From Mycolicibacterium fortuitum subsp. fortuitum (GTDB taxonomy: Bacteria; Actinomycetota; Actinomycetes; Mycobacteriales; Mycobacteriaceae): a stretch of DNA of 64,000 nucleotides. The translations under genes and the position numbers were made by a program. Within the stretch, counting starts at the first letter, position 1. Each line of letters opens with the position of its first letter. The notes under the pieces were generated by a model. It was not told the DNA's origin. It did not search any database and saw only the letters and a list, made by a program, of their open reading frames with translations. Location: the NCBI RefSeq assembly GCF_022179545.1, contig NZ_AP025518.1:3100001-3164000 (forward strand). The letters are read 5' to 3'. Shown here one piece after another: positions 4,164 to 51,337 of the stretch.

Positions 4164-4227
4164 TCATCACTGAGACGACGTACCGCCCACTTGACCTGAC
4201 CGCACTGCCGCTCGAGGAGTTGTGCCT

Positions 4228-11995: not shown

Positions 11996-11999
11996 AACA

Positions 12000-17637: not shown

Positions 17638-17868
17638 GTGAGCATCAATCCATTCGACGACGACAACGGCAGTTTTTTCGTCCTGATCAACGACGAGGAG
17701 CAACACAGCTTGTGGCCGACCTTCGCCGAGGTTCCGGCCGGCTGGCGAGTGGTCTATGGCGAGGCGGACCGCGCGTCCTGCCTGGAGTACATCGAGCAGC
17801 ATTGGGTCGACATCCGACCGAAGAGTCTCCGCGAGAGGTTGGCACAGGGTCGGACTGTTGATCAGTAA
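17638..17868 (+). CDS. mbtH: MbtH-like NRPS chaperone
   Basis: This is a 76-residue protein of standard MbtH length. All family signatures are present: [10 protein letters not shown] (NxExQxSxWP), PAGWRVVYG, and [14 protein letters not shown]. MbtH proteins bind the A domains of NRPSs and are needed for their folding or adenylation activity. The GTG at 17638 has GGAGA 4 nt upstream. The last 11 bases overlap the start proposed for the giant NRPS gene, so the pair is translationally coupled. GPL loci show the same mbtH-NRPS order, which supports this being the dedicated partner for the eight A domains downstream. Confidence 0.95.
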
Positions 17869-20800
17869 GCCGCAGGCTGGAATTTCCGGAAGTGTTCCTG
17901 AGGCACTTCCACTCACGCGGGGCCAGTTGGACATTTGGCTTGCCGAGGAGGCTGGGCGTGCCGGGGTCAAGTGGCAACTTGGCATGCTCGCACGACTCGA
18001 CGGCGCCATCGAACACGGTGTTCTCGAGCAGGCGATCCGGCATGTAGTCGGGGAAGCCGAACCGCTCAGAGCTTCGTTTTCAGAGGTGGACGGCCAGGTC
18101 CTCCAGACACTGGTCGACTATCCAGATGTCGAGCTCGCCCACCACGACCTGACGCAGTCGACCGATCCGGTGCAGGATGTGTACCGGGTGATCGCAACGA
18201 TCCGTCAGACGCCCATGCCGCTTGACGGGCCTTTGTTCAAGTTCGCGTTGCTGCAGACCAAGGCCGAAGAGTTCTACTTTTTTGTATGCTGCCACCACAT
18301 CGCGATCGACGGCATCGGGATGGGTCTGGTCTGCCATCAGATTGCCGCTGCCTACACAGCAATCGCTGCCGGCGAGCCGATGCCGCCCGCAATCTTCGGG
18401 TCCCTGAAGAGCCTCATCGATTGCGAGTCTGACTACGAGGCTACCGACGATTACCGCGATGATCAGGCGTATTGGTCCGAGAATGTACCGCCTGAATCTG
18501 AGCCGCATCATGTACCGGCCTCCGCAGTCGCAAACCAGCCTCTCGAGTACGTGCCTTCTGCGCCAGTCCAACTGGACCAATCGGTGGTCGGCAGGGCCCG
18601 CGAGCTGTCGAAGGCGCTGGGGGTTCGCCGCGCGTCGGTGATCGCTGCGGCGTATGCGCTGCTGGTGCACGGTGAGACCGGGGGAACCGAGGTCGTGCTC
18701 GACTTCCCGGTGAGCCGCCGGGTGCGTCCGGAAGTGCTGACAGTGCCCGGGATGGTTTCCGGGGTTGTGCCCCTGATACTGAGAACATCACCGCAGTCCA
18801 CGGTGGCTGAGTTCTGCCAACATGTCGACCGGCGGATCCGGGAAGCGATGCGCCATCAGCGTTTTCCGCTCCGCGAGATCGAGAACAAGACCCGGTTCCA
18901 GGGCACGGGACAGCCGTCGACGAGGGCTGCCATCAACTTCATCCCGACGATTCCCGTGGCAGACTTTGCCGGCACTCCGGGATCAGGTACGGCAACCCAC
19001 ACCGGCCTGGTGGACCAATTCGGTCTGGTGTTCCTCAAAGAGGATGAAGACCTCTACCTCAGCATGACGGGAGTGGGGCAGCTCTTCGCCGGCTGCGAAG
19101 CTCGCGATTTGGCGGACCGATTCGAACTGGTACTGACGGCGATGACCGCCGACCCGGCACGATCGCTGTCGACGATCGACATCGGTCATGAGCTCAAAGA
19201 GCTTGATGAATGGGGTAATCGGGCAGTCTTGGGTCGGCCGATCCCGCCTGCTCGGTCGATTCCGGCTCTGTTCGCAGAGCAGGTCGCCCGAGACCCGGGC
19301 GCGATCGCGGTGCGTTTCGGCGACAGCTCCATGTCGTATCGCGGGCTGGACTCTGCCGCGAACCGGTTGGCGCACCTGCTCATTGAGCGCGGTGTCGGTC
19401 CGGGGCAGCGGGTGGCGTTGCTGTTCCCGCGGTCGATCGAGGCGATCGTGGCGATCTTCGCTGTGCTGAAAACCGGTGCGGCATATGTACCGATCGACCC
19501 TTCCGTGCCCGACGCCCGCCTCGATTTCGTGCTGTCCGATGCCGGGGCGGTTGTCGCTGTGACCACCGCCAACCTCATGGACCGGGTCAGTGCACGCGGG
19601 TTGACGGTGATCGATATTCACGACCGCGCGGTGTACGGACGACCGGACACTCCGGTATCTGTGTCCCCTGAGCTCGACGACATCGCCTATTTGATTTACA
19701 CCTCGGGTACCACGGGTGTTCCCAAGGGGGTGGCGGTTCCGCATGGGAATGTGACGGGGTTGTTGAGCGCGATCGATGGTGTTGTCGATCTGTCGCCGGG
19801 TCAGGTGTGGACGCAGTGTCATTCGTTGGCGTTTGACTTCTCGGTGTGGGAGATCTTCGGTGCGCTGCTGCATGGTGGGCGGCTGGTGGTGGTGGGCGAA
19901 TCGGTGACGCGTTCGGCTGAAGAGTTGCATGCATTGCTTGTTGATGAACGTGTCAGTGTGTTGAGTCAGACGCCGTCGGCGTTCTATGCGTTGGCGGCGG
20001 TGGATACTGCCGGGCCGGAGAACCGGTTGGCGCTCGAAGCAGTGGTGTTCGGTGGGGAGGCGTTGGAGCCGGCCCGGCTCAAGTCGTGGCTGACTGAGCA
20101 TCCGGTGTTGCCGCGGTTGATCAATATGTATGGGATTACCGAGACGACGGTGCATGCGTCGTTTCGGGAGATCACTGCTGGCGATGTCGGGGGGGTTGGG
20201 AGTCCGATCGGTGTGCCGTTGGACCATCTGGCGTTTTTTGTGCTTGATGGTTGGTTGCGTCCGGCGCCGGTGGGTGTGGTGGGTGAGTTGTATGTGGCCG
20301 GTGCGGGTTTGGGTTATGGCTATGTGGGTCGCACTGGGTTGTCGTCGACTCGGTTTGTGGCGTGTCCGTTTGGTTTGGCGGGCGGGCGGATGTATCGGAC
20401 CGGGGATTTGGTGTGTTGGGGGGCTGACGGTCAGCTGCAGTATGTGGGTCGTGCTGATGAGCAGGTCAAGATTCGTGGTTATCGCATCGAGTTGGGGGAG
20501 ATCCAGTCGGCGTTGATGGCGTTGGACGGTGTGGATCAGGCGGTGGTGATCGCGCGGGAGGATCGTCCCGGTGACAAGCGTCTGGTCGGTTACCTCACCG
20601 GCACGGCTGACCCGGTCGAGTGCCGGGTCGCACTGTCCGAGAAGCTGCCCTCCTACATGGTGCCCACCGCGGTCGTCGCTCTGGACGAATTTCCGTTGAC
20701 CGTCAACGGCAAACTCGACAAAAAAGCGTTACCAGCGCCCGAATTTCGCGAGGTCGATGATCGTCGGGCTCCCTCGACTCCCGTCGAGGAGATCCTGGCC

Positions 20801-23800
20801 GGCATCTACGCCGAGATACTCGGACTGGACCGCGTCGGTGTCGACGCGTCGTTCTTCGAATTGGGTGGCGACAGCATCTTGTCGATGCAAGTTGCTTCAC
20901 GCGCCCGCGCGGCGGGCTTGGTGTGCCGGCCACGCGACATCTTCGTCCAGCAGACCGTGGCCCGTCTCGCTCAGGTGGTCGAGACCACCGGCATACCGGA
21001 CCGGCCCGTCGACGCAGGCTTGGGGCCGGTTGCAGCGACCCCGATCATGCATTGGCTGAAGAGCCTGGAGACTCTCGAGGGGCCGGTCGACGAGTTCAAC
21101 CAGACGGTCGTGCTGCAGGCCCCATCCGGTGCATCTGCGGATGATGTCGCAAACCTCTTGCAGGCCTTGCTCGACCGACACGGCATGCTCCGGCTGCGCG
21201 CCGGGGACGACGACGCAGGCGGCTGGTCCCTCACCGTTCCCGGCGCAGGTTCGGCCGACGCGGCCGGCTGCCTGCGCACAGTCGACGTGCTGTCGGACGA
21301 GGCACTCGTGGGCGCTAGGTCGCGGTTGAACCCGGCCGCCGGGGTGATGGTCAGCGCGCTGTGGGTGACATCGGTGAGTCAGCTGGTGTTGATCGTTCAC
21401 CATCTGGCCGTCGACGGAGTGTCGTGGCGAATCCTCCTGGAGGACCTCAACATCGCCTGGGTTCAGCATCGCCACGGGCAGCCTGTGACATTGCCCGATA
21501 CCGGCACCTCGTTCGCCCGGTGGGCCGATCTGCTGACTCAGGTTGCGCAGCATCCACAAGTCGGGGAGCAGGCGCAGCTGTGGCGGCGCATCGGGGCGAC
21601 GCCGGCAACCCTGCCCGCACCGCTGCCGGATGTCGACACCTACGCGACCGCCGGGCAGCTGTCCATGATGTTGGACGCAGAGACCACCCGGATGTTGCTC
21701 TCAGAGGTGCCCGCCGCCTTCCACGCCGGGGTGCAGGACGTACTGCTGATCGCATTCGGATTGGCGGTGGCTGAGTTCACCCGTGCCGGCGGCGCGCCGA
21801 TCGTCATCGATGTCGAGGGCCACGGCCGCAACGAAGAGATTGTGAATCTGGGCGGAGCGGCTGCCGGGGATCTCGACCTGTCGCGCACGGTCGGATGGTT
21901 CACCACCAAATACCCGGTGGCCCTGGATCTCCAGGGCCGCGGCGGTGGCCTGTCCTGGCCCCAGGTGGTCTCCGGCGACGCGGCTCTCGGCGCTGTGATC
22001 AAAGACGCCAAAGAGCAGCTTCGTGCTCTGCCGGACGGGCTGACCTACGGTCTGTTGCGGTACCTGAATGCCGATGTGGATCTGGCCGGTCCGGACCCGG
22101 TAGTCGCGTTCAACTATCTCGGCCGAATGGGCGCGACCGCAATGGAGTCGTCCACCGACGTCTGGCGGATCTGCCCTGAGGGCTTCTCCTTGGCGAACAT
22201 CGCCGGAGCGGTTGCCACCTCACTCGGGCACACCGTCGAGCTCAACGCCGCCACCGTCGACACCGACGCCGGCGTGCAACTGAACGCCGACTGGACCTGG
22301 GCGCTCTCGGCGCTCGACGACGAACTGGTGAACAGGTTGGGCCAGTTGTGGTTCGAGGCGCTGACAGGCATCTGCGAACACGTTCGCCGTGGAGGCGGGG
22401 GACTGACCCCATCCGACATCGCGCCCGCCGCACTCAGCCAGCAGCAGATCGACGAGCTGAGCCGCCAGTTCCCGGTTGCCGATGTCTTACCGCTGACCCC
22501 GTTGCAACAGGGATTGCTCTACCACGCCGGCACCGCGCAGGGCTCGGACGATGTCTACGCGATGCAGCTCAGTATCGCGTTGAGCGGAGCACTCGATGAG
22601 GATCGGCTCCGTAACGCGGTGCACACGGTCGTCGCGCGGCACCCGCATCTGGTCGCCCGGTTCGCCGAACAGTTCGAGCAGCCGGTACAGGTCATTCCCG
22701 TCGAGCCGACGGTGCCATGGCGGTACGTCGAATTGGACACCGACAACATCGACCTCGGTGATCAAATCCAGGTGATCTGCGCCGCCGAGCGCGCCGCAGT
22801 GTGCGACCTACCGAACCATCCTGCCTTCCGTGCTGCCCTGATTCGTATCGGAGACGACCAGCACCGATTCGTCCTCACCACTCACCACATCGTGCTCGAC
22901 GGCTGGTCGATGCCGATCCTGCTGCAAGAGATCTTTGCAAGCTTCGCTGATCGACGGCTGCCTGCGGCCCCGCCGTATCGCAGCTTCGTCACCTGGCTCG
23001 AAGAACGCGACCATGTCGGGGCGCACGCGGCGTGGAGCGAGCGGTTGAGTGGCTTCGACACCCCCACGCTGGTGGGTTCAGCGGGCCGAGATCGGCTGGG
23101 AGAAAGAGGTATTGAGACCTTCCGGCTCCCCGAACAGGTCAGCCGGGCACTCAGCGGCCTCGCTCGCTCCCATCGCACAACCCCCAACATCGTGCTGCAG
23201 GGTGCCTGGGCAACGTTGCTCAGTTCGCTGACCGGGCAGCAGGATGTCTCATTCGGTACGACCGTGTCGGGGCGTCCGGCGGAGGTCGTCGGGGCCGATT
23301 CCATGGTGGGTCTGCTGATCAACACCGTGCCGGTACGGGCCACGTTCACGCCCGCAACCACGACCTCGGACCTGTTGCGTCAGCTGCAGGACGCCCACAA
23401 TGCCACGCTCGAGCACCAACACGTGGCTCTCAGCGACATCCACCGGATCACGGGCCAGGACCGACTGTTCGACACGCTCCTGGTTTTCGAGAACTATCCG
23501 ATCGACACCGCCGCGCCGCTGGGCGTCGAGGGCTTGACCGTCACCGGGCTCGATTTCCGCGAGTCCAACCACTACCCGTTGGCGGTGCAGGTGTTGCCCG
23601 GCCGTGAGACGGGCAACCACGTCGAACGCGAGATGCGGCTGCGCGTCGAGTACGACGCCGACGTCTTCGACCTCGGCACCGTCGCTACGTTCATCGAGCG
23701 GCTGGAGAAGGTTCTCACTGCGATGAGCGCAGACCCGCACCGGCCGCTGTCGTCAGTCGATCTGCTCGATGCGCACGCCCGCTCCTGCCTGGACAAGTGG

Positions 23801-26800
23801 AGCAACCGAGCGGTTTTGGCCACACCGGCCTCGTCGAAATCGATTCCGGAGTTGTTCGGCGAGCAGGTCGCGCGCACTCCCGACGCGACGGCGCTGAGCT
23901 GCGCCGGCCGATCGATGACCTACCGCGAACTCGACGATGCCGCCAACCGGCTTGCCCAGCTGCTGTCGGCGTACGGCGCCGGACCGGGCGAAGTCGTGGC
24001 ATTGCTGTTTTCCCGCTCGGCCGAAGCCATCGTCGCGATTCTGGCCGTCCTGAAAACTGGTGCCGCATACGTCCCGATCGACCCGGCGCTTCCGCTCGCG
24101 CGCATCCAGTTCATGGTGGCCGACGCCGCGCCGATCGTCGCGGTGACCACATCCGACCGGAGATCACGCCTCGAAGGGTGCGAGCTCCCCGTCATCGACA
24201 TCGGTGATTCGCCGGTGGACAACCAGCCCCACACCGCACTCTCGGGCCCGGCCCCCGACGACATCGCATACATCATCTACACCTCGGGAACCACTGGCGT
24301 CCCCAAAGGTGTTGCCATTCCGCACCGCAACGTTCCGGGCCTGTTCGGCGTGCTCGGCGCCGATGTGTCGTCAGGACCGGGCCAGATCTGGGCACAGTGG
24401 CACTCGTACAGCTTCGACGTGTCGGTGTGGGAGATCTTCGGTGCCCTACTACATGGGGCACGCCTGTTGGTGGTGCGTGAACAGGTGGCCGAATCGCCCG
24501 ATGCCTTTCACGAGCTGCTCGTCACCGAACACGTCACCGTGCTGAGCCAAACCCCTTCTGCAGCGGGAATGATCTCGCCGCAGGGGTTGGAATCGACCGC
24601 GCTGGTGGTGGCGGGTGAAGCGTGTCCGCCGGAGTTGGTGAAACGCTGGGCATCCGGTCGCGTGATGATCAACGCCTACGGTCCCACCGAGGCCACGGTG
24701 TATGCCTCGGTCAGTGCGCCGCTCGCGCCGGGGCCGGAGGTCCCGATCGGCAAGCCCGTGGCCGGGGGAGCACTGTTCATATTGGACTCGTGGCTGCGTC
24801 CGGTCCCTCCGGGCGTGGTCGGCGAGCTGTACATCGCCGGCCGCGGTGTGGGCGTCGGCTATTGGCGTCGAGCGGGCTTGACGTCGTCGCGGTTTGTGGC
24901 CTGCCCTTTCACTGTCGCGGGTGTAGCCGGACAACGGATGTATCGCACAGGTGATCTGGCGCGGTGGGGCGACGACGGGCAGGTGCACTACCTCGGTCGT
25001 GCGGACGAGCAGGTCAAGATCCGCGGATACCGCATCGAACTCGGCGAAGTACAGGCTGCGCTGGCCGCTCTCGACGGGGTGACCCAGGCAGTGGTGATCG
25101 CCCGCGAGGACGACGCCGGTACCGTGCGGCTCGTCGGCTACATCACCGGGGACGCCGATCCGCGTGATGTCCGCGCTCAGGTGGCCGAGCGGCTCCCGAG
25201 CTACATGGTCCCGGCTGCGGTAGTGGTGATCGACACGGTGCCGCTGACCGTCAACGGAAAGCTCGACAGGCGTGCACTTCCGGCTCCCGACTATGCCCGC
25301 ACCGATCATTATCGGGCGCCGACCAGCCCGGTCGAGGAGATCCTTGCCGACGTTTATGCCCGCGTGCTGGGACTGGATCGGGTCGGCGTCGACGACTCGT
25401 TCTTCGATCTCGGCGGGGACTCCTTGTCCGCCATGCGTCTGGTCGCGGCGATAAAGAAATCGCTGAACGCCGGTATTTCGGTGCGCTCGTTGTTCGATGC
25501 GCCCACCGTCGCGGGACTGGCGACCTGTGTCGGTGGGGAAGAAGCTTCGCTGGAGCCACTGGTAGCCGGTGAGCGGCCCGCGGTGGTTCCGTTGTCGTTC
25601 GCACAGTCGCGGCTGTGGTTCCTGGACCAATTGCAGGGCCCGTCACCGGTTTACAACATGACGGCTGCCTTCCGGATCAGCGGCGCGCTCAACTGCGACG
25701 CGTTGCGTGCCGCGCTGGCCGATGTGGTGGACCGCCACGAGAGCCTGCGAACAATGTTCGCCGCACCGGACGGTGTACCCCGCCAGGTCATCGTCGCCGC
25801 CGGGCAAGCGGAGTTCGGCTGGGACGTCGTCGATGCCACCGATTGGACTGCGACCCGCCTGCAGGAAGCCATCGATTCCGCATCGCAGCACACCTTCGAT
25901 CTGGCCACCGAGATCTCGCTGCGGGCAAGACTGTTCCGCCTGTCCGACGACGAACATGTCCTCACGGCGGTGGTGCACCATATCGCGGCAGACGGCTGGT
26001 CGATCACTCCGCTGCTGGCCGATCTGGGGGTGGCCTACAGCAGCCGCTGCGCGGGACAAGCTCCCGAGTGGGCTGGTCTGGCGGTGCAGTACGCCGATTA
26101 TGCGCTGTGGCAACGGGCTCAGTTCGGTGACCTGCAGGATGGGAGCAGCCGGATAGCACGGCAGCTGGCCTATTGGCAGGACGTGTTGTACGGCATGCCC
26201 GAACGCATCGCGCTACCCACCGACCGGCCCTACCCGTCGATGACCGATCAGCGGGGCGCGACGGTGACTGTGCACTGGCCGGTCGAACTCCAGCAGCGGG
26301 TCGCCCAGTTTGCACGCGAGCACAACGCGACCAGTTTCATGGTGGTCCAAGCAGCGCTGCTGACCCTGCTGTCCAAGCTCAGCGCCACGACGGATGTGGC
26401 AGTCGGTTTCCCCATCGCGGGGCGGCGCGACCCCGCGCTTGATGAACTCGTCGGCTTCTTCGTGAACACCTTGGTACTGCGGGCCGACCTGGCGGGAGAC
26501 CCGACGGTCAGCGAGGTGCTGGCTCAAGTTCGCGAGCGCAGTCTGGCGGCGTTCGATCATCAGGATGTGCCGTTCGAGGTTCTCGTCGAACGGCTGAACC
26601 CGACTCGATCCCTGGCACACCACCCACTGATTCAAGTGGCACTGGCGTGGCAGAACAGTTCACGTGCCGGAACGGTGTTGGCCGATCTAGAGGTCACCGA
26701 CGTGCCGGTGAACACCCGCTCCGCACGGATGGATCTGAATTTCTCTCTGGCGGAACGTCAGACCGAGACAGGTGAGCCGGCCGGAATCGGTGGGACCGTG

Positions 26801-38800: not shown

Positions 38801-41800
38801 GTCCTGGACGAGTGGTTGCGTCCGGTGCCGCCCGGGGTGGTCGGTGAGCTTTACGTGGCCGGTGACGGCGTGGCGTGCGGCTACCTCGGTCGGTCGGCGT
38901 TGACCGCGGCCCGATTCGTGGCCTGCCCGTTCGGGGAGCCCGGTCAACCAGCCGCACGGATGTATCGCACCGGTGATCTCGTGAGGTGGCGGTCCGACGG
39001 GCAGCTGCAATACCTGGGTCGGGCAGACGACCAGGTGAAGATCCGTGGGTACCGGATCGAGCTCGGTGAAGTCCAGGCGGCTCTGGGCGGGCTGGACGGA
39101 GTGGGCCAGGCCGCGGTGATCGCCCGCGAGGACCATCCGGGCGTCAAGCGTCTGGTCGGCTATGTCACCGAGGACTCCGCAGGGTCGGTGGACCCGGTTG
39201 GTGCGCGGACTGCCTTGGCAGACCGGTTGCCCCCGTACATGGTTCCGTCTGCGATTGTGGTGCTCGAAGCGTTGCCGTTGACCGTCAACGGAAAACTGGA
39301 CACCCGCGCCTTACCGGCTCCTGAATACCAGGACGTAGATAAGTACCGCGCACCTGGGACCGCCGTCGAGGAGGTCCTGGCGGGTATCTACGCCCGGGTT
39401 CTGGGGCTGGATCGGGTCGGCGTCGACGAATCCTTCTTTGACCTGGGTGGCGACAGCATCCTGTCCATGCAGGTGGTGGCGCAGGCCAGAGCATGCGGTG
39501 TGATGTGCCGGCCGCGTGACATTTTCGTCGAACAGACGGTCGCCCGCCTGGCGCAAGTAGTGGGGGTGACCGGCGATGACGACGGCCCGGTCGACGAGGG
39601 CATCGGTGCCGTGGTGGCGACGCCCATCATGCGGTGGCTGCACGACGTGCACAGCTCGGGTGGTCAGGTCGACCAGTTCAACCAGACCGTCGTGATCCAA
39701 GCCCCGTCAGGTGCCACCGAATCCGATGCCGAGTTGGTGTTGAGTGCCCTGCTGGACCGGCACGCTATGTTGCGACTGCGCGCCGAGGACGCCGACACCG
39801 GCAACTGGTCATTGCTGGTCCCCGAAAAGGGTTCGGCACGACCGTGTCTGGACTCGGTGGAGGTCCTCTCGGACGAAGCGTTGGTTGCCACGCGGTCCCG
39901 GCTGAACCCGGCCGCCGGTCAGATGTTGAGCGCTCTGTGGGTGGCATCCACCCGCCAACTGGTGTTGACCATTCACCACCTGGCCGTCGATGCGGTGTCC
40001 TGGCGGATCCTGTTGGAAGACCTCAACATCGCGTGGGCGCAGCATTGTCAGGGACAACCGGTGGCGTTGATGGCCACAGGAACGTCCTTCGCGCAGTGGG
40101 GCGCACTACTCGCCCGATATGCGCGCTCCGCGGCGGTGGAGTCCCACACCGACAGTTGGCGGCAAGTGTTGACGACTCCATCGGTGCTTCCCGAGGTGCG
40201 ACCGGAACTCGACACGTATGCCACCGCCGGCCACCTCACCGCCGAGTTGGATGTCGAGACGACCCGCGCTCTACTGGGCGAGGTCCCGGCGGCCTTCCAC
40301 GCGGGGGTGCAAGACATCCTGCTGATCGCCTACGGGCTGGCGCTGACGCAGTTTCTCGGAGTCACCTTGCCGGTTGCCGTCGACGTCGAAGGTCATGGCC
40401 GCCAAGAGGATCTGGATGGACTGTCCGATCGGGCCGTCGACCTGTCCCGCACCGTGGGCTGGTTCACCACCAAGTATCCGGTGGTACTGGACGTGGCAGT
40501 CGACGCAGGCCGACGTCGGGCCGGGCTCAGCTGGTCGGAGGTGGTGGCCGGTGCTCCGGCACTCGGTCGCGTGATCAAGGATGCCAAGGAACAACTGCAC
40601 TGCCTGCCGGACGGCATTACCTACGGACTGTTGCGACACCTCAACCCCGACGTCGATCTGTCCGGGTCCGAGCCGACCATCGGATTCAACTACCTCGGCA
40701 GGTTGGGCGGATCCGGTCCGGTGCAGCAGGCGGAAACGGCCGGGCTGTGGCAGGTCAGCGTCGACGGGGTAGCCGCAGCCGCGGCCGCTGCGGCCATTCC
40801 GATGCCACTCGGACACACCGTGGAGCTCAACGCGAGCACCGCCGAAACCGACGAGGGACCGCGCCTTCACGCATCCTGGACGTGGGCGAACTCGGCTTTG
40901 GACGAGGCCAAGGTCAGCAGACTGAGTCAGCTCTGGTTCGAAGCGCTCGCCGGCATTTGCGCGCACGTCCGCCGCGGCGGGGGCGGACTGACCCCTTCCG
41001 ACGTAGTCCCTGCCGAGCTCACCCAGTCTCAGCTTGACGAGTTGGCTCTGGAATACGAGCTGGCCGATGTGCTTCCGCTGACCCCGCTGCAGCAAGGGCT
41101 TCTCTTCCACGCCAATGCGTCCCACGACGATGACGACGTCTACGCCATGCAACTAGACGTCACAGTCACCGGCCCGCTGGATGGCGATCGGCTGCGCGAG
41201 GCAGTGCGCACAGTGGTCAGGCGCCACCCCAACCTGGCGGCCCGGTTCGACAAGCGGTTCGACGAACCGGTGCAGGTCCTCATGGCCGATCCGGACGTAC
41301 CGTGGCAGTACCTCGAAATGGCCGGGGACACCGACGTGCAGCGGGTGTGTTCCGATGAACGCGCCGCAGTCTGCGACCTGGCCCACGAATCGCCATTCCG
41401 GGCAACGCTGATCCGGACCGCGGACAACGAGCACCGGTTCGTCATGACCTACCACCACATCGTGCTCGACGGGTGGTCACTGCCGATCCTGCTCCAGGAG
41501 ATATTCACCAGCTACTACGGAGGACACCTGCCGGCTCCCGCCTCCTATCGCAGATTCGTGACGTGGATGGCCGATCGGGATGTCGACGCCGCCTTCGCCG
41601 CGTGGCGTGACGTTCTCGCTGATTTCGCCACCCCGACACTGGTCGCCCCGAACCGTACGCGGCCGGGACGGCGGGCTACCGAGATGTTCCGACTGCCTGC
41701 CGAAACCACCCGGGCCGTCACTGAACTCGCGCGTTCGCAACACACCACTGCGAACACGGTTCTGCAGGCCGCCTGGGCGCAGGTGCTCACGTGGCTCACC

Positions 41801-42292
41801 GGGCAGCACGATGTGGTGTTCGGCGTGGCAGTCTCGGGTCGCTCGGCCGAAGTAGCCGGCGCGGATTCGATGGTCGGCCTGCTCATCAACACCGTGCCGG
41901 TGCGGGCCACCATCACTCCGGACACCACCATCGCGGGACTACTCGACGAGCTGCAGCGCCGCCACGGCGACACCCTCGACCATCAGCATCTAGCCCTCAG
42001 CGAGATTCACCGCGCCGTCGGTCATGATCAGCTGTTCGACACCTTGTTCGTCTACCAGAACTATCCGGTGGACGCGGTAGCGGCGACGATGGCCGACGGC
42101 TTGGCCATCACCGAGGTCAACGGCCGCGAGTACAACCATTACCCGCTGACGTTGCAGGCCATGCCGGGAGCGGAACTTGTTCTCCGCGTCGAGTTCGACA
42201 CGGGCGTGTTCACGGCCAAACGCGTGAACAAGATCGTCGGACGATTCCAGCGGGTGCTCGAAGCCATGACCGGGGAGGAACAACAATCGTGA
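17858..42292 (+). CDS. Giant nonribosomal peptide synthetase, modules 1-6 plus C domain of module 7
   Basis: This predicted protein is about 8144 residues. The most likely start is the TTG at 17858 (TTG ATC AGT AAG), because C1 begins about 15 residues later ([12 protein letters not shown]); in-frame starts further upstream lie inside mbtH. Domain order with carrier Ser residues: C1 (15-431), A1 (464-961), T1 (Ser 1006), E1 (1054-1525), C2, A2 (1995-2475), T2 (2522), C3, A3 (3045-3528), T3 (3576), E3, C4, A4 (4543-5028), T4 (5073), C5, A5 (5602-6086), T5 (6134), C6, A6 (6665-7152), T6 (7200), E6 (7250-7715), C7 (7735-8144). Every A domain keeps YTSGTTG-x-PKGV and the final Lys in NGKLD/N. C domains after E domains carry HHIVLDG (D-L type); those after plain T domains carry HHIAADG (L-L type). 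The protein stops at the end of C7, and its partner continues with the A7 domain. The gene overlaps the next one by 4 bases (GTGA). Confidence 0.95.
17897..22440 (+). other. NRPS module 1: C-A-T-E, A domain predicted Thr
   Basis: C1 has HHIAIDG and is unlike the later C domains, as expected for a starter C domain that N-acylates the first residue. The A1 specificity residues, read against GrsA-PheA numbering, are D-F-W-S-V-G-M-V-H-K, close to the known Thr code DFWNxGMVHK. T1 ends [11 protein letters not shown], and E1 carries [12 protein letters not shown] and FTTKYPVAL, so D-allo-Thr (or D-Thr) is expected. Confidence 0.75.
19681..20733 (+). repeat. A1 copy of a near-identical A-domain DNA block
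   Basis: This stretch of A1 is almost identical at base level to 42834-43890 (A7) and, in its 3' part, to 46475-47087 (A8). Codon use changes abruptly inside it: many TTG, TTT, GGT, TAT and CGT codons against the C/G-ending codons of the rest of the NRPS. The pattern fits recent duplication or gene conversion of a Thr-activating core. Confidence 0.85.
22441..25540 (+). other. NRPS module 2: C(D-L)-A-T
   Basis: C2 has HHIVLDG at 22883, matching the upstream epimerase. The A2 code reads D-V-W-S-V-A-A-V-Y-K. I cannot assign it with confidence; it looks hydrophobic. T2 ([11 protein letters not shown]) is followed directly by an L-L C domain, so the residue stays L. Confidence 0.7.
25541..30120 (+). 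other. NRPS module 3: C(L-L)-A-T-E
   Basis: C3 has HHIAADG at 25976. The A3 code reads D-V-W-T-V-V-A-M-C-K, not one I can match. T3 ([11 protein letters not shown]) and E3 ([12 protein letters not shown] at 29108) give a D residue. Confidence 0.7.
30121..33190 (+). other. NRPS module 4: C(D-L)-A-T
   Basis: C4 has HHIVLDG at 30554. The A4 code reads D-F-W-T-V-G-V-M-W-K. The Trp at 331 and the altered GAEPCPP loop make it unusual. T4 ([11 protein letters not shown]) is followed by an L-L C domain. Confidence 0.65.
33191..36370 (+). other. NRPS module 5: C(L-L)-A-T, Glu at pocket position 239
   Basis: C5 has HHIAADG at 33629. The A5 core is FDASVEEIW, so residue 239 is Glu instead of Trp; the full code reads D-A-E-S-L-A-A-I-C-K. 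An acid here favours an amine-bearing side chain (Lys/Orn/Dab type), as in the Lys code DAESIGSVCK. The closing motif is NGKLN. There is no E domain. Confidence 0.65.
36371..41010 (+). other. NRPS module 6: C(L-L)-A-T-E, E motif variant
   Basis: C6 has HHIAADG at 36812. The A6 code reads D-F-W-T-L-G-A-V-Y-K, unassigned. T6 is [12 protein letters not shown]6 has [12 protein letters not shown] (39974), Ala replacing the Gly seen in the other three E domains; catalytic His and Asp remain, so epimerisation is probably intact. Confidence 0.65.
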
Positions 42293-44160
42293 GTGCAGAT
42301 GCCAACCGGCGATTGTTGTCGATGGATCTGGACGACGACGAGGAACTCGACGAGCTCGACGAGTGGGGTAATCGGGCGGCCCTGGACAAGCCGCTGACGG
42401 CATCCTTGTCCATCCCGGCGATGTTCGCCGAGCAGGCGGCTCGTGACCCGGGCGCGATCGCGGTCAGCTTCCGGGGCAGCAACATCACCTACGGTGAGCT
42501 CGATCAGTCTGCGAATCGTCTGGCGCACCTGCTCGTTGAGCGCGGTGTGGGTCCGGGGCAGCGGGTGGCGTTGCTGTTCCCGCGGTCGGTCGAGGCGGTC
42601 GTGGCGATTCTGGGTGTGTTGAAAACCGGTGCGGCATATGTACCGATCGACCCCTCGGTCCCTGATGCGCGTATCGAATTCGTGCTCAGCGACTCAGCAC
42701 CGGTAGCGGCGATCAGCATCGCTGACCAGATGCATCGCTTGAGTGGGCGAGCGGTGGCCATGATCGACATCAACGACCCCACCATGACCAGCCAACCCGT
42801 CACGCCGCCGCAGGACGAGCCGGACGCCGACGACATCGCCTATTTGATTTACACCTCGGGTACCACGGGTGTTCCCAAGGGGGTGGCGGTTCCGCATGGG
42901 AATGTGACGGGGTTGTTGAGCGCGATCGATGGTGTTGTCGATCTGTCGCCGGGTCAGGTGTGGACGCAGTGTCATTCGTTGGCGTTTGACTTCTCGGTGT
43001 GGGAGATCTTCGGTGCGCTGCTGCATGGTGGGCGTCTGGTGGTGGTGGGCGAATCGGTGACGCGTTCGGCTGAAGAGTTGCATGCGTTGCTTGTTGATGA
43101 ACGTGTCAGCGTGTTGAGTCAGACGCCGTCGGCGTTCTATGCGCTGCAAGCCGCCGACGAGCTGGCTGATTCAGCATCCGAGCTCGAGCTGGAACTGGTC
43201 GTGTTCGGTGGGGAGGCGTTGGAGCCGGCTCGGCTCAAGTCGTGGCTGACTGAGCATCCGGTGTTGCCGCGGTTGATCAACATGTATGGGATTACCGAGA
43301 CGACGGTGCATGCGTCGTTTCGGGAGATCACTGCTGGCGATGTCGGGGGGGTTGGGAGTCCGATCGGTGTGCCGTTGGACCATCTGGCATTTTTTGTGCT
43401 TGATGGTTGGTTGCGTCCGGCGCCGGTGGGTGTGGTGGGTGAGTTGTATGTGGCCGGTGCGGGTTTGGGTTATGGCTATGTGGGGCGCACTGGGTTGTCG
43501 TCGACTCGGTTTGTGGCGTGTCCGTTTGGTTTGGCGGGCGGGCGGATGTATCGGACCGGGGATTTGGTGTGTTGGGGGGCTGACGGTCAGCTGCAGTATG
43601 TGGGTCGTGCTGATGAGCAGGTCAAGATTCGTGGTTATCGCATCGAGTTGGGGGAGATCCAGTCGGCGTTGATGGCGTTGGACGGTGTGGATCAGGCGGT
43701 GGTGATCGCGCGGGAGGATCGTCCCGGCGACAAGCGTCTGGTCGGTTACCTCACCGGCACTGTTGATCCTGCAGTGGCGCGTGCCGAGCTCGCCGAGAAG
43801 CTGCCCTCCTACATGGTGCCCACCGCGGTCGTCGCTCTGGACGAATTTGCGTTGACCGTCAACGGCAAACTCGACAAAAAAGCGTTACCAGCACCCGAAT
43901 ACCAACACACCGACGAGTATCGGGCTCCGACCACTCCCACTGAGGAGATCGTCGCCGGTATCTACGCCCAGGTTCTCGGACTGGACCGCGTCGGTGTCGA
44001 CGCGTCGTTCTTCGATCTGGGCGGCGATTCGCTGCAGGCCATGCGCCTGGTCGCCGCGCTCAATCGGACGTTGAACGCGGGCTTGGAAGAGCGCGTCGTG
44101 TTCGACGCTCCCACGGTCGCCCAGTTGATGCTTCGCATCGGTGGTGAGCAAGGTCGTCAA
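41011..44160 (+). other. NRPS module 7, split between two proteins: C(D-L) | A-T, predicted Thr
   Basis: C7 (HHIVLDG at 41453) is the C terminus of the first NRPS and A7-T7 open the second. The A7 code is D-F-W-S-V-G-M-V-H-K, identical to A1, so Thr. T7 Ser is at 44029 ([11 protein letters not shown]). No E domain. Confidence 0.75.
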
Positions 44161-47100
44161 CAGCCGTTGGTGGCCGGCAAGCGGCCCATGGTGATGCCGT
44201 TGTCCTATGCACAAAGCCGATTGTGGTTCATCGATCAATTGAACGGTCCCTCACCGGTTTACAACCTGGCAGCAGCGCTTCACCTTGATGGCCCACTGGA
44301 TGTGGAAGCCCTCGGCGCGGCATTCGCCGACCTCCTGGGCCGCCACGAGAGCCTGCGAACCTTGTTCCCCACGGTCGAGGGAACGCCGCAACAGCTGATT
44401 GTTCCCGCCGATCAGACCGAATTCGGTTGGCAAGTCGTCGATGCCGTCGGTTGGTCGGCAGACCGGCTGCAGAAGGCCATCGAAGATTCCGCCCGCCACA
44501 GTTTCGATCTGGCCACCGAGATCCCGGTACGCGCAAAGGTTTTTCGGGTTTCCGAGGACCGGCATGTTTTGGCGGTGGTGGTGCACCATATCGCTGCCGA
44601 CGGCTGGTCGATCACGCCGCTGGTGGCAGATCTGGGAGTGGCCTACACGAGCAGGCGGATAGGACAGGCCCCTGACTGGCAGCCATTGGCAGTTCAGTAT
44701 GCGGATTACACCCTGTGGCAGCGCGCCCAGCTCGGCGACCTCGAGCACAGCAACAGCCGGATCTCCCAGCAGCTGGATTACTGGGCGGAGACCCTGGCCG
44801 GGATGCCCGAGCGCCTGACGCTTCCGACCGACCGGCCGTACCCACTGGTGGCCGACCAAAAGGGCAACCGGGTCGAGGTGCAGTGGTCCGCCGATTTGCA
44901 GTTACAGGTGGCGCGCCTGGCTCGCGATCACAACGCGACGAAGTTCATGGTGGTCCAAGCGGCACTGCTCACCCTGCTGTCCAAGCTCAGCTCGAGTACT
45001 GATGTGGCAGTGGGCTTCCCGATCGCCGGGCGCCGTGATCCTGCCCTCGACGGCCTGATCGGGTTCTTCGTCAACACCCTGGTGCTGCGGGCAGACCTCG
45101 CAGGGAATCCCAGCGTCACAGAAGTGCTGGACCAGGTAAGAGCGCGGACCCTCGGTGCGTTCGACCATCAAGACGTGCCCTTCGAGGTCCTGGTCGAACG
45201 GCTCAACCCGTCGCGGTCGCTGGCCCATCACCCGCTGGTGCAGGTGATGCTGGCCTGGCAGAACGTTCCCGGGCAGGTCGGCGAAGCCGACAAGGTGCTG
45301 CTGGAGGATCTGCAGGTCACGCAGCTGCCGCTGGACACGCACACCGCCCGCACGGACCTGTCGTTCTCGTTGGCCGAACGGTGGACCGAAACCGGAGAAG
45401 CCGCAGGAATTTCCGGCACTGTCGAGTTCCGGACCGACGTATTCGACGACAACAGCATCGAAGTGCTGATCGATCGGTTACGCCGGGTGCTCGAGTCGAT
45501 GGCCGCCGACCCGACCCGCCGGTTGTCGGCGATCGATGTGCTCGACGCCGACGAGCGGGTGCGGCTGGACACGGTGGGCAATCGGGCAGCGCTGGCCCGT
45601 CCTGAACCAACGACGGCTACGATCCCGGCACTGTTCGAGAGGCACGTGGTCCGCGATCGGGAGGCGATCGCAGTCAGCTTCGACGGTAGGCAGATCACGT
45701 ATGGAGAGCTCGATCAGGCCGCGAACAGACTGGCGCAGTTGCTCGTTGAGAACGGTGTCGGCCCCGGGCAACGGGTCGCGTTGCTGTTCACCCGCTCAGT
45801 TGAGGCGATCGTCGCGATCTTCGCAGTGCTCAAGTCCGGCGCGGCGTATGTGCCGATCGACCCTGTGGTGCCCGACTCCCGGTTGTCGTTCGTCCTCACC
45901 GATTCCGCGCCGGTCGCCGTGGTCACCACAACCGACCTGATCCCCCGGATCGTCGGTCATGGGCTGCTGGTGATCGACGTCTGTGAGATCACGGTTCGTG
46001 CGATCGATGATCGTCGGGCCGCTGTGTTGCCCGCACCCGGTCCGGACGACATCGCATATCTGATCTACACGTCGGGGACCACCGGCGTGCCGAAAGGTGT
46101 GGCGATCCCGCACCGCAACGTGGCCCGCCTACTGGCGGCGCTGGACACCGAGCTGGAATTGTCCGCGGATCAGGTATGGACGCAATGTCATTCGTTGGCG
46201 TTCGACTTCTCGGTGTGGGAGATCTTCGGTGCGCTGCTGCATGGCGGGCGGCTGGTGGTCGTGGGCGACGCGGTAGCCCGTTCGCCTGAAGAGTTGCATG
46301 CGTTGCTCGTCGATGAACACGTCAGCGTGCTGAGCCAGACGCCGTCGGCGTTCTATGCGCTGCAAGCCGCCGACGAGCTGGCTGATTCAGCATCCGAGCT
46401 CGAGCTGGAACTGGTCGTGTTCGGTGGGGAGGCGTTGGAGCCGGCCCGGCTGGGTGAGTGGTTACAGGATCATCCGGTGTTGCCGCGGTTGATCAATATG
46501 TATGGGATTACCGAGACGACGGTGCATGCGTCGTTTCGGGAGATCACTGCTGGCGATGTCGGGGGGGTTGGGAGTCCGATCGGTGTGCCGTTGGACCATC
46601 TGGCGTTTTTTGTGCTTGATGGTTGGTTGCGTCCGGCGCCGGTGGGTGTGGTGGGTGAGTTGTATGTGGCCGGTGCGGGTTTGGGTTATGGCTATGTGGG
46701 TCGCACTGGGTTGTCGTCGACTCGGTTTGTGGCGTGTCCGTTTGGTTTGGCGGGCGGGCGGATGTATCGGACCGGGGATTTGGTGTGTTGGGGGGCTGAC
46801 GGTCAGCTGCAGTATGTGGGTCGTGCTGATGAGCAGGTCAAGATTCGTGGTTATCGCATCGAGTTGGGGGAGATCCAGTCGGCGTTGATGGCGTTGGACG
46901 GTGTGGATCAGGCGGTGGTGATCGCGCGGGAGGATCGTCCCGGTGACAAGCGTCTGGTCGGTTACCTCACCGGCACGGCTGACCCGGTCGAGTGCCGGGT
47001 CGCACTGTCCGAGAAGCTGCCCTCCTACATGGTGCCCACCGCGGTGGTCGCTCTGGACGAATTTCCGTTGACCGTCAACGGCAAACTCGACCAGAAGGCC

Positions 47101-50100
47101 TTGCCTGCACCGGAATACCAGGACATCGATCATTACCGTGCCCCGGCCACCCGCCTCGAGGAAATCCTGGCCGGTATCTTCGCCGAGGTGCTCGGGCTGG
47201 AGCAGGTCGGGGTCGACGACTCATTCTTCGACCTTGGCGGAGACAGTATTTCGGCCATCCAGGTGATATGGCGGGCACACAGTGCCGGTCTGACCGGTCG
47301 CCCGCGCGACATCTTCGTCCAGCAGACCGTCGCCCGGCTGGCACGTGTGGTCAGGATGTCCAACAGCGCGGGCAGCGTGGCCGACGAAGGTCTCGGACCG
47401 GTCGTGCCCACCCCGATCATGCGGTGGCTCAAGAGCCTGGAGACTTCCGAGGGGCCAATCGACGAGTTCAACCAGACGGTCGTGCTGCAAGCCCCATCGG
47501 GTGCATCTGCGGATGATGTCGCAATCTTGTTGCAGGCCTTGCTCGATCGACACGGGATGCTGCGGTTGCGCGCAGAAGACGACGGTGCCGGCGGATGGTC
47601 GTTGACGGTGCCCGAGGCAGATGCCGTCGACGCGGGCACGTGTCTGCATACGGTGGACGTGCTGTCGGAAGAGGCTCTGGCCGCCGCGAGGTCCCGGTTG
47701 AACCCGGCCGCCGGGGTGATGCTGAGTGCGGTGTGGAGTGCCTCCACGGGGCAACTGGCGCTGGTCGTCCACCACCTCGCTGTTGACGGCGTCTCGTGGC
47801 GAATCATGTTGGAGGACCTCAACATCGCCTGGGTGCAGCATCGCGGCGACCAGCCGGTGCTGTTGCCGCGGACCGGAACGTCGTTCACTCGGTGGGCCGA
47901 TCTGCTGTCTGAGTACGCGTACCACCCCGACGTGGTCGAGCAGGCGGACATCTGGCGGCGAGTGACCACGATTCCGGCTTCGTTGCCTGCACCGCACCCT
48001 TCGGAGGATACGTTCGCCACGGCGGGCTACCTGTCGGAATTCCTCGACGCCGAGACCACCCACATGCTGCTGGGCGAGGTTCCGACAGCATTTCACGCCG
48101 GCGTGCAGGAGATCCTGCTGATCGCCTTCGCTTTGGCGTGGACGCAGTATCTCGGGACCGGCGGTGCGCCGATCGCGATCGACGTCGAGGGTCACGGCAG
48201 GCAAGAGGACGTGGTACCCGGTGGGTCCGATGACCACGACGTCGACCTGTCCCGGACGGTCGGGTGGTTCACCACCAAGTACCCGGTGGCTCTGAACTTC
48301 GGCGGTCCGGTGGGCGGGCTGCGTTGGACACAGGTGGTGGCTGGTGATGCCGCGCTCGGCGCGGTGATCAAGGATGCCAAAGAGCAGCTGCGCGCTCTGC
48401 CCGACGGTCTGACCTACGGCCTGCTCCGCTATTTGAATTCCGACGTGGATCTGGCCGGTTCCGATCCCGTGATCGGGTTCAACTATCTCGGGCGACTGGG
48501 GTCCCCGGCGGCCTACGCGTCGGGCGACGTGTGGCGGTTCAGCCAGGCCGGTTTTTCGTTGACCGGTGCTGCCGGGTCCATGCCCATCGCACTGGCACAC
48601 TCGGTGGAGCTCAACGCCGTCACCATCGACACCGATACCGGCCCGCATCTGAATGCCACCTGGACCTGGGCGCCTTCCGCGCTGGATCGCACAGCCGTCA
48701 CCCGGATCAGTCGGTTGTGGTTCGACGCGCTGGCGGGCATCTGCGCACATGTGCGGCGTGGTGGCGGCGGCTTGACGCCGTCGGACATCGCCCCGGCCCG
48801 CTTGAGTCAGCGTCAGCTCGATGAGCTGCATGCCCAATTCCCGGTCGCGGACGTACTGCAGCTGACTCCGCTGCAACAGGGACTGCTGTACCACGCGGGC
48901 GTCGCGAAATCATCCGGTGACGACGTCTACGCGGTGCAGCTGGATCTGGCATTGAGCGGTCCGCTCGAGGTGAACCAGCTGCGCGAGGCCGTGCAGACCG
49001 CCGTCAGCCGGCATCCACATCTGACGGCTCGTTTCTGCCACCAATTCGAGCAACCTGTACAGGTCATTCCCGCGGATCCCGTTGCGCCCTGGCGATACAT
49101 CGAGTTGCACACCGACGGTGTCGGCGTCGAGGCAGAGATCGAGGAGATCTGCGCGGCCGAGCGCGCAGCTGTGTGTGACCTCGAGAACCAGCCCGCCTTC
49201 CGGGTAGCTCTCATTCGCGTCGCGGACAACACCCATCGGTTCGTGCTGACCAATCACCACATCGTGCTCGACGGCTGGTCGATGCCGATATTGATGCAGG
49301 AGATCTTCGCCGGCTACCAGGGGGTCCGGTTGCCCGCCGCCTCGCCGTACCGCAGTTTCATGGCGTGGTTGGCCGAACGCGATCACCATGCCGCGCACGC
49401 CGCGTGGCGGGAGGTGCTGGCCGGTTTCGACACCCCGATTCTCGTGGGACCGCCGCAGAAGTTGCGGTTCGGGGAGAGAAGCGTCGCCTCGTATCGGATA
49501 CCGGCGAAGACCACGAGGGCACTCACCAAGTTGGCCCGTTCTCACCACACCACCGTCAACGTGGTGTTGCAGGGAGCCTGGGCATTACTGCTCAGTTCGC
49601 TGACCGGCCAGCCTGACGTTGCCTTCGGCACCGTCGTCTCGGGTAGGTCGCCGGAGGTCGACGGTGCGGATTCGATGGTGGGCCTGCTGATCAACACGGT
49701 GCCGGTACGCGCGACCTTCACTCCGGACATGACCACGGCCGGGCTGCTGGATCAATTACAGAGCGCCCACAACGACACGCTCGAGCATCAGCACGTGGCC
49801 CTCAGCGACATCCACCGCATCACCGGGCAGGATCGCCTGTTCGACACCGTCTTCGTCTATGAGAACTACCCGACCGAGGCCGGGACTCAACCGGGCGGCG
49901 ACGGGTTGGCCATCATCGGTTTCAGCAGTCGCGACTACTACCACTATCCGATCTCGGTGCAGGCCGGGCCGGGCCGGGAACTGGAACTGCGGGTCCAGTA
50001 CGACACCGATGTCTTCGACGCGGAATCCATCGAAGCGCTGATGGAGCGGTTCCGGAAGGTACTGGTGGAGATGACCGCACATCCGGGTCGCCGATTGTCG

Positions 50101-50451
50101 TCATTGGACTTTATGAAGGGCTCCGAGCCGCGGCTGGGCAGCTGGGCACTCGCGGCTGAGCCCACGGTCTCGCAGCCGGTTTCATCACCGGACTCGTCCG
50201 GTGATGCATACTGCCCGCCGGCGACCTTGATCGAGCAGATCGTGGCCAGCATCTACGCCGAGGTGCTGGGTGTAGACCGGGTCGGGGTGGAGGAGTCGTT
50301 CTTCGATTCGGGTGGCGATTCGATCTCAGCGATGCGTGCCATCGCTGCGATCAACGCAGCCCTCGACGTCGAGCTCACGGTGCTCACGCTGTTCGAATCG
50401 CCGTCGGTGCGCAGCCTGGCTCAGCAGTTGGAGAACACCCCCGCTCAGTGA
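42289..50451 (+). CDS. Nonribosomal peptide synthetase, A-T of module 7, module 8, and terminal C-T
   Basis: This is a 2720-residue protein starting at a GTG that overlaps the stop of the first NRPS by 4 bases. The first 40 residues are acidic ([16 protein letters not shown]) and could dock to the upstream protein, though the stretch also resembles the normal C-A linker. Domains: A7 (42-535), T7 (Ser 581), C8 (635-1101), A8 (1111-1608), T8 (Ser 1653), E8 (1705-2168), C9 (2185-2608), T9 (Ser 2678). Both A domains have the Thr-like code DFWSVGMVHK. It lacks an A domain in the last module and lacks any TE or reductase, and no stand-alone thioesterase gene follows. How the peptide is released is unknown: C9 could be a release domain, T9 could be charged in trans, or an external acyltransferase could act. 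Its stop is 24 bp from a convergent gene. Confidence 0.95.
42834..43890 (+). repeat. A7 copy of the near-identical A-domain DNA block
   Basis: It matches A1 from the ATP-binding motif to NGKLD with only scattered differences, except about 43141-43195 where it instead matches A8 ([15 protein letters not shown]). It is therefore a mosaic of the other two copies. Confidence 0.85.
44161..48800 (+). other. NRPS module 8: C(L-L)-A-T-E, predicted Thr
   Basis: C8 has HHIAADG at 44584. The A8 code is again D-F-W-S-V-G-M-V-H-K. T8 ([11 protein letters not shown]) and E8 ([12 protein letters not shown] at 47770) give D-(allo)Thr. The A-T-E part is a close copy of module 1. Confidence 0.75.
46357..47087 (+). 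repeat. A8 copy of the near-identical A-domain DNA block
   Basis: The first part (46357-46445) is nearly the same as A7 43141-43229. The remainder from about 46475 is nearly the same as A1, including the [16 protein letters not shown] segment that A7 lacks. The upstream half of A8 uses normal GC-rich codons, so the junction is visible in the sequence. Confidence 0.85.
48801..50451 (+). other. NRPS terminal module 9: C(D-L)-T without A domain or release domain
   Basis: C9 has HHIVLDG at 49255 and a complete C-terminal half. After a short linker comes a carrier domain with [15 protein letters not shown] (Ser at 50320), then the stop. There is no A domain between them and no TE or reductase after them. 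Confidence 0.85.
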
Positions 50452-51150: not shown

Positions 51151-51176
51151 GCATCCTCCTGTCGTCCTTGCAGCAT

Positions 51177-51192
51177 CGGCTGCCGGCAGCCG
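51177..51192. promoter_or_regulatory. 16-bp perfect palindrome upstream of ICMT-family gene
   Basis: CGGCTGCCGGCAGCCG is perfectly self-complementary and lies 27 nt upstream of the GTG start at 51150. It could be an operator or part of an mRNA hairpin; GC-rich palindromes of this size are fairly common in such genomes. Confidence 0.25.
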
Positions 51193-51337
51193 CAATGCGA
51201 CGCACGGCTCAACCTACCGTCGCCCGCCTGCGAGGTGGGTGCGATTGCCTCAAGCTACGGCCCAGCGGGGCAACCGGTTTCCGCAGGCATCCTGCCGTGG
51301 CGTCGTTCCTGGTGCTCTATCTCGTGATGAGAAGCGA

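Follow-up and report, generated by a model that had tools for sequence, protein, structure and literature searches.

A locus very likely encoding a GL8P synthetase in a rapidly growing mycobacterium close to the Mycobacterium fortuitum group

In this study, we found that a 64,000-nucleotide stretch of the Mycolicibacterium fortuitum subsp. fortuitum genome (the window) contains two tandem NRPS genes which, with high confidence, can be regarded as encoding the GL8P synthetase of a rapidly growing species near the M. fortuitum group. GL8P is a glycosylated lipooctapeptide, a surface lipid of Mycobacterium abscessus described in 2025; its peptide was assigned as D-aThr-Ala-D-Phe-Ile-Tyr(OMe)-D-Leu-Thr-D-aThr (TAFIYLTT) by NMR, MS, and Marfey analysis, and its formation in M. 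abscessus depends on the NRPS gene MAB_4690c, as deletion showed (PMC11978893). The main text of that paper restricts conservation of the product to the M. abscessus complex and a small number of close relatives, names M. immunogenum, and proposes that the lipid could serve to mark M. abscessus infection selectively (PMC11978893); the window lies outside this species range. As judged from the published description, the window shares with MAB_4690c/MAB_4691c the tandem hexa- and bimodular NRPS genes, the E domains at modules 1, 3, 6, and 8, the order Thr1-Ala2-...-Thr7-Thr8, and accompanying MmpL, MbtH, glycosyltransferase, and methyltransferase genes. A preliminary description of this DNA had predicted D-Thr-X-D-X-X-X-D-X-Thr-D-Thr but could match it to no product; this pattern is that of the GL8P peptide, and a characterised product for the same domain order is thus already in print (PMC11978893).

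The open frames of the two NRPS genes span 17756-42292 (8178 aa) and 42289-50451 (2720 aa), share 4 bp, and carry the following features.

17638..17868, + strand: gene for an MbtH-like protein of 76 aa with a GTG start, lying immediately before NRPS1 (PF03621, 99.9 bits at 17647-17799)
17858..42292 (start 17756 or 17858), + strand: NRPS1, C1(starter)-A1-T1-E1-C2-A2-T2-C3-A3-T3-E3-C4-A4-T4-C5-A5-T5-C6-A6-T6-E6-C7
42289..50451, + strand: NRPS2, A7-T7-C8-A8-T8-E8-C9-T9, carrier domain last, without thioesterase
17906..19225, + strand: C1, starter condensation domain, putatively N-acylating
19268..20920, + strand: A1 (with the start of T1), DFWSVGMVH, predicted Thr, made D by E1
23852..25468, + strand: A2, DVWSVAAVY, predicted Ala; code also at the Ala position of a fortuitine-like line
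27008..28633, + strand: A3, DVWTVVAMC, predicted Phe by position match to GL8P, made D by E3
31502..33124, + strand: A4, DFWTVGVMW, predicted Ile by position match to GL8P
34676..36307, + strand: A5, DAESLAAIC, predicted Tyr (O-methylated in GL8P) by position match
37865..39505, + strand: A6, DFWTLGAVY, predicted Leu by position match to GL8P, made D by E6
42421..44070, + strand: A7, DFWSVGMVH, predicted Thr
45631..47289, + strand: A8, DFWSVGMVH, predicted Thr, made D by E8
48874..50094, + strand: C9, terminal C domain of DCL type, with HHIVLDGWS and the Asp, Tyr, and Gln residues specific to terminal domains, proposed release domain
50179..50412, + strand: T9, terminal carrier with no A domain of its own and an intact phosphopantetheine serine

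Motif counts in the two genes gave 13 HHxxxD[AG] sites (9 C and 4 E domains), 8 A domains, split six and two over the genes, and 9 T serines, which bears out the colinear set of domains described previously. The E domains in modules 1, 3, 6, and 8 support the D residues proposed at these positions, and the TTG at 17858 proposed as the NRPS1 start is plausible, since the MbtH gene, ending at 17868, runs past it. By HMM scoring, every C domain after an E domain is of DCL type and the others are of LCL type; this agreement with the epimerases, also claimed earlier, is partly circular since the HMMs were seeded from the window itself, but the active-site motifs also differ by direct reading (HHIVLDGW versus HHIAADGW). 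An assembly error joining separate genes is unlikely, because the same domain order is present in other genomes, four of which are single-contig assemblies (G050, G088, G220, and G232). A natural two-module short variant was considered for M. sp. URHD0025 (G128) and rejected: the missing middle lies on another contig (C22, 7304-aa frame) and the Thr A domains are near-repeats, and the short form was therefore treated as a draft-assembly misjoin. The same short form was seen in M. setense.

The adenylation codes were read at GrsA positions mapped by motif rather than by aligned structure, with the tenth residue (Lys) appended rather than read. The three Thr-like codes noted earlier are present at A1, A7, and A8. 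The codes of modules 1, 2, 7, and 8 agree with those read at the Thr and Ala positions of the fortuitine-like line and at the Thr position of GPL lines (Thr within one residue), and thus specificity for Thr1, Ala2, Thr7, and Thr8 is predicted. At positions 3-6, Phe, Ile, Tyr, and Leu would be the substrates in this organism by analogy with the M. abscessus product, from which alone these substrates are known. A basic residue at A5, suggested by resemblance to a Lys code that has Glu at position 239, was set aside in favour of the published Tyr at this position.

The genes upstream of the synthetase, and one downstream, encode putative tailoring and export functions.

1..3724, + strand: two MmpL transporters, the first beginning upstream of the window (PF03176)
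4222..5196, + strand: sulfotransferase-like protein, weakly named (24.9 bits against a Pfam cut-off of 27)
5187..6584, + strand: weakly WS/DGAT-like acyltransferase, candidate sugar O-acyltransferase (PF03007 E 0.013, HNLIDG motif)
6692..7969, + strand: glycosyltransferase GT1 (PF06722/PF03033)
7991..8779, - strand: SfLAP, Gap-type export protein (PF11139)
9055..10335, + strand: glycosyltransferase GT3
10377..11171, + strand: methyltransferase MT1 (PF13649)
near 11204-11995, - strand: second SfLAP copy, 45% identical to the first
11996..13177, + strand: methyltransferase MT2, class I, Cys-rich N-terminal part, start approximate (PF13489)
13252..14220, + strand: TylF-family O-methyltransferase (PF05711)
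14278..15543, + strand: glycosyltransferase GT2
15571..16977, - strand: cytochrome P450, marker gene for the cluster (PF00067)
50476..51195, - strand: ICMT/PEMT-like membrane methyltransferase, candidate C-terminal carboxyl methyltransferase (PF04191/PF04140); homologues adjoin the NRPS genes in relatives

A profile search with the sulfotransferase-like protein gave no PDB relative (one chance-level row), and an ORF at 8863-10341 on the - strand, with no Pfam match, was discarded as an antisense artefact over GT3. In the stretches examined of five Mycobacteroides-type loci, neither a separate GT1 gene nor the TylF methyltransferase gene was found. Based on these two extra genes in the window, a glycan larger than that of GL8P is predicted for this lineage, and the window product may differ from GL8P in this respect. 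In the simplest scenario, C1 would N-acylate Thr, the eight modules would assemble D-aThr-L-Ala-D-Phe-L-Ile-L-Tyr-D-Leu-L-Thr-D-aThr, and the chain would exit at C9-T9 without a thioesterase. Tailoring enzymes would then O-methylate Tyr and the sugars, attach the glycan to Thr8, and acylate the inner sugar, with export of the lipid by the MmpL and SfLAP proteins; the role given to each tailoring gene is a putative one.

Although a figure legend annotates a Te domain in the GL8P synthetase (PMC11978893), the window line ends in C-T, and no terminal thioesterase was found in the window (E<=0.01) or in the relatives examined, including the chromosome taken as M. immunogenum; given this absence there too, a thioesterase was not regarded as a defining feature of GL8P synthetases. 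Three residues (Asp, Tyr, and Gln) are fixed in 63/63 terminal C domains but in 0/63 internal ones, where DCL domains have Glu, Asn/Thr, and Glu. Since monophyly of the terminal C domains was not found (FastTree; in the best of 20 rootings on internal tips, the terminal group still took in 39 internal tips), we report this residue split without claiming a clade. Among the best 80 ICMT-like loci, 57 have an NRPS ending in C-T. The GL8P formulas are one CH2 above the sum of the parts named in the main text (PMC11978893), which fits a C-terminal methyl ester, possibly made by the ICMT-like enzyme. A release role is proposed for C9-T9. We tentatively consider, as a possibility well short of probable, that the terminal C-T is a dedicated thioesterase-free release unit with a distinct C subtype, which together with the ICMT-like enzyme would give C-terminal methyl-ester D-Thr lipopeptides in many mycobacteria, and that the extra GT1 and TylF genes here would lead to GL8P with a longer, more methylated glycan. 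Alternatively, and rather unlikely, C9-T9 may be a decayed remnant, with release by a trans-acting hydrolase encoded elsewhere in the genome, where 13 TE-type matches are found in contrast to none in the window at the above threshold. However, the catalytic histidines and the carrier serine are kept in all 16 genomes listed (C9 motif HHIVLDGWS in 15, and HHILMDGWS in G227), and the fixation of the three terminal-specific residues is unlike decay.

The assignment of Phe, Ile, Tyr, and Leu by position leaves some room for a related octapeptide that departs from GL8P in at least one of positions 3-6, albeit with only a slight probability. The chromosome taken as M. immunogenum (G220) has the domain order of the window, with 73% identity over 8156 aa and 72% over 2788 aa, and six of its eight codes are identical to those of the window. 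A3 and A7 each differ from it at one code position, which would be consistent with a changed residue, whereas the A4, A5, and A6 codes are identical in this chromosome and the A3 code is identical in three other genomes (G050, G088, and G169). A2-A6 found their best match at their own module in 9/9 relatives compared (module numbering in G239 is shifted by one, with A1 split), and the three Thr A domains were intermixed among themselves. Best matches off their own module were seen for C3 in G169, C4 in G232, C7 in G231, E1 in G220 and G232, and the second E domain in G232. The Tyr-position code is present in 28/28 P450-marked relatives (396 genomes searched, own included), which include M. peregrinum and M. 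houstonense and thus extend beyond the range stated in the paper. In 20/20 P450-marked genomes further to the relatives compared module by module, it was read by alignment, whereas an HMM-free regex read the A5 code in 9/20 loci.

The "nine-module" line of the preliminary description holds insofar as a ninth C-T is present, but module 9 lacks an A domain and GL8P as published is an octapeptide, so that the peptide was overstated. A true ninth module loaded in trans, giving a nine-residue peptide, would account for the retention of the T9 serine and the C9 active-site motif in the 16 genomes listed; it is nevertheless highly improbable, given the eight residues of GL8P (PMC11978893), a published mass which, for the parts named in the main text, allows one CH2 only, and the lack of a free-standing A domain among the genes that were annotated within the window and in the DNA immediately preceding it.

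The same genome contains a separate line at 985-1020 kb, which we call fortuitine-like on the basis of the fortuitine peptide sequence. It shares with the window Thr-type and Ala codes, ICMT-like and u465-like genes, and SfLAP, but differs in lacking E domains, in carrying NMT-sized insertions in modules 2 and 5, and in ending with a thioesterase. Its Ala code (DVWSVAAVY) and its Thr code, one residue off that of the window, lie at the modules corresponding to Ala and Thr of fortuitine, and since the line decodes as the fortuitine sequence, fortuitine is very probably made there rather than by the window. The GPL synthetases Mps1/Mps2 and their locus share with the window E domains, MbtH, MmpL, a Gap-type protein, and TylF and EryCIII-like tailoring families, but have four modules, the final A domain being followed by about 480 residues, presumably a terminal reductase; no such four-module line was found among the 32 C-domain matches in this genome. 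Consequently, that the window line itself makes fortuitine or GPL is extremely improbable: its MmpL, SfLAP, MbtH, glycosyltransferase, and TylF genes belong to families of the GPL locus, but it has four E domains and no N-methylation insertions, the fortuitine order is decoded elsewhere, and GPL lines comprise four modules coding for Phe-Thr-Ala-Ala, as a full reading in G132 and G164 showed. The earlier view of a GPL-type locus making neither GPL nor fortuitine is thereby supported.

In summary, the window represents a GL8P-type line outside the M. abscessus group, with extra sugar genes and no obvious release enzyme, which makes it a useful case rather than a new kind of system. The locus makes it testable how a peptide exits a C-T-ending line without a thioesterase. 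Furthermore, should species such as M. peregrinum and M. houstonense encode this octapeptide as well, cross-reaction in serology with the M. abscessus marker would be a direct concern.

The two NRPS reading frames of the window, NRPS1 (17756-42292) and NRPS2 (42289-50451), contain nine C, eight A, nine T and four E domains in colinear order, and the domain reading of the preliminary description was correct. The C-terminal 123 residues of NRPS2 match only PP-binding, indicating that the protein ends in a carrier domain. No PF00975 thioesterase was found in the window at E<=0.01; the whole-genome search of this single contig of 6,406,072 bp gave 13 matches, all located elsewhere. The A-domain codes, in which eight substrate residues were read by alignment, are listed below together with the MbtH gene; a passage of PMC12283262 gives DFWSVGMVHK under Thr.

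17638-17868, MbtH gene, overlapping the previously proposed NRPS1 start at 17858
A1, A7 and A8, DFWSVGMVH
A2, DVWSVAAVY
A3, DVWTVVAMC
A4, DFWTVGVMW
A5, DAESLAAIC
A6, DFWTLGAVY

The window's own genome provided a second calibration of these codes. A fortuitine-like line at 985-1020 kb reads DFWSMAGVY, DAFLVGAIW, DFWSMAGVY, DFWSMAGVY, DAFLVGAIW, DYWSVGMVH, DYWSVGMVH, DVWSVAAVY and DVWNVAGWY, with NMT-sized gaps in its A2 and A5 and a thioesterase at its end. The pattern obtained from codes and gaps, Val-MeLeu-Val-Val-MeLeu-Thr-Thr-Ala-Pro, is the sequence of fortuitine; thus, judged from the codes, fortuitine is very probably made by this line, and DVWSVAAVY corresponds to Ala. The wider locus (985-1033 kb) has a first protein with a C domain at its end and two paralogs as second proteins; these share 66.6% identity over 4111 aa, and both start with an A domain, end in a thioesterase and have an ICMT-like gene downstream. 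Either could pair with the first, giving Thr-Thr-Ala-Pro (fortuitine) or Thr-Ala-Thr-Val, and a branched assembly line is possible.

According to the main text of PMC11978893, the glycosylated lipooctapeptide (GL8P) of M. abscessus is N-stearoyl D-aThr-Ala-D-Phe-Ile-Tyr(OMe)-D-Leu-Thr-D-aThr and bears acylated rhamnose and 2-O-methyl-rhamnose on Thr8. That text attributes its synthesis to two NRPSs, one hexamodular and one bimodular, whose E domains fall at positions 1, 3, 6 and 8, and reports that deleting MAB_4690c abolishes the product. The peptide pattern of the preliminary description was well predicted and matches this published pattern exactly, but its claim that no product could be matched does not hold: the product is already known as GL8P. 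The same text names M. immunogenum as sharing the GL8P locus. Against G220, taken as the M. immunogenum chromosome, identity is 73% for NRPS1 (8156 aa aligned) and 72% for NRPS2 (2788 aa aligned); six of the eight A-domain codes agree fully, with a single-position difference in A3 and another in A7. A2-A6 found their best match in the same module in all nine relatives compared, best matches of the three Thr A domains were mixed among one another, and a best match at another module was seen for C3 in G169, C4 in G232, C7 in G231, E1 in G220 and G232, and the second E in G232. Within the genome, the three Thr A domains (19268-20920, 42421-44070, 45631-47289) appear homogenised, with exact shared stretches of 575 bp (A1/A8) and 242 bp (A1/A7). 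In M. franklinii (G243), the first A domain of a Mps2-like protein has DFWTVGVMW, the code of the GL8P Ile module; an Ala-like DVW code occupies this position in the nine other GPL-type lines read. The locus of the window is best classified as that of a GL8P synthetase whose tailoring genes are expanded.

Adding up the components that PMC11978893 names in its main text gives C70H114N8O18 for GL8Pa and C89H148N8O24 for GL8Pb, each one CH2 short of the published C71H116N8O18 and C90H150N8O24, whose computed masses agree with those measured. The extra CH2 would be explained by a C-terminal methyl ester; another methyl elsewhere, or an acyl chain one carbon longer, would also fit. An ICMT/PEMT-like methyltransferase gene lies downstream of the NRPS (50476..51195, minus strand); the response regulator and branched-chain amino-acid ABC transporter beyond it look like ordinary neighbours. 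Fortuitine is a methyl ester, and an ICMT-like homologue lies downstream of both thioesterase-ending NRPSs in the fortuitine-like locus.

The T9 serine is intact in all 16 genomes listed (G128 as two rows), and the C9 motif is HHIVLDGWS in 15 and HHILMDGWS in G227, which has the C-T ending and lacks a close ICMT-like homologue in the fetched stretch. The G227 line itself has six modules, the same ending and mostly different codes. Among the best 80 loci from a scan of 443 relatives for the ICMT-like protein, NRPS domains are present in 59, of which 57 have a C-T ending at most 40 residues from the NRPS stop (E-C-T in 55; L112 and L114 end otherwise), counts that give the C-T ending in the presence of the ICMT-like gene, not the reverse, as loci were picked via the methyltransferase. 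For the other 21, no NRPS domain was seen in the flanking sequence fetched; contig ends truncate some of these flanks, and others are of full length. In named contigs, a set that may lack the nearest records, the closest ICMT-like loci belong to M. peregrinum, unnamed species, M. setense and M. septicum; the three named species are of the M. fortuitum group. A C-T-ending NRPS without thioesterase shares its stretch with an ICMT-like gene in 38 of 60 loci of named mycobacteria, many with module numbers different from the window's. With identical or contained rows removed (72 terminal to 63, 66 internal to 63), three positions separate terminal from internal DCL-type C domains without exception (Asp versus Glu, Tyr versus Asn/Thr, Gln versus Glu). 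This split is descriptive, as the positions were chosen from a scan of every column in this same data set. A quick tree did not recover the terminal C domains as one clade.

Upstream of the NRPS lie MmpL genes, a sulfotransferase-like protein, SfLAP proteins and the following.

5187..6584, WS/DGAT-like acyltransferase
6692..7969, 9055..10335 and 14278..15543, EryCIII-like glycosyltransferases GT1, GT3 and GT2
10377..11171 and 11996..13177, class I methyltransferases MT1 and MT2
13252..14220, TylF methyltransferase
15571..16977, minus strand, P450

The sulfotransferase-like gene (4222-5196) occurs in clusters of both lineages; the GL8P description used here (PMC11978893) reports no sulfate. Each of five Mycobacteroides-type loci (G243, G050, G220, G088, G169) has two close glycosyltransferases (GT3, GT2), a distant GT2-like match downstream (28-29% in four, 26% in G220) and no TylF within the fetched stretches. 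The window, G119, G231, G239 and G128 have all three glycosyltransferases and TylF; in G232, GT3 and GT2 are present and GT1, TylF, MT2 and the acyltransferase are absent from the fetched stretch. Two glycosyltransferases would fit the two rhamnoses of GL8P, and the third suggests a further sugar on the product.

The P450 marker, at 71% identity or more, was found in 29 of 396 genus genomes including the window's own, the next matches being at most 69%; M. houstonense ATCC 49403T (G231) is among them. In 20 of the 28 relatives, including M. peregrinum DSM 43271, whose NRPS is split over contigs, the A domain at the Tyr position was located by search and decoded: 17 have DAESLAAIC, two DAESLAGIC and one DAESLAAVC. 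The remaining eight (G119, G231, G232, G243, G050, G220, G088, G169), read whole, have DAESLAAIC or DAESLAGIC. Of nine loci read whole (these and G239), seven show the window's C/A/E order uninterrupted (in G232 there is also a separate, additional ligase frame), and G231 and G239 show it with frame breaks. Apparent two-module short forms occur in G128 and M. setense; the G128 form very likely reflects a misjoin of the draft assembly at the Thr A-domain repeats rather than a natural variant. An A-C-A-E-C-T ending with two Thr-type motifs is present in named contigs of M. septicum, M. sp. CBMA 247, M. elephantis and M. franklinii, with M. septicum and M. elephantis known from the ending alone. 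Among the eight papers listed as matching 'lipooctapeptide' or 'GL8P', the term GL8P appears only in PMC11978893, whose main text mentions peregrinum once, for its GPL, and does not mention fortuitum. GL8P is thus not reported in that main text for the lineage of the window.
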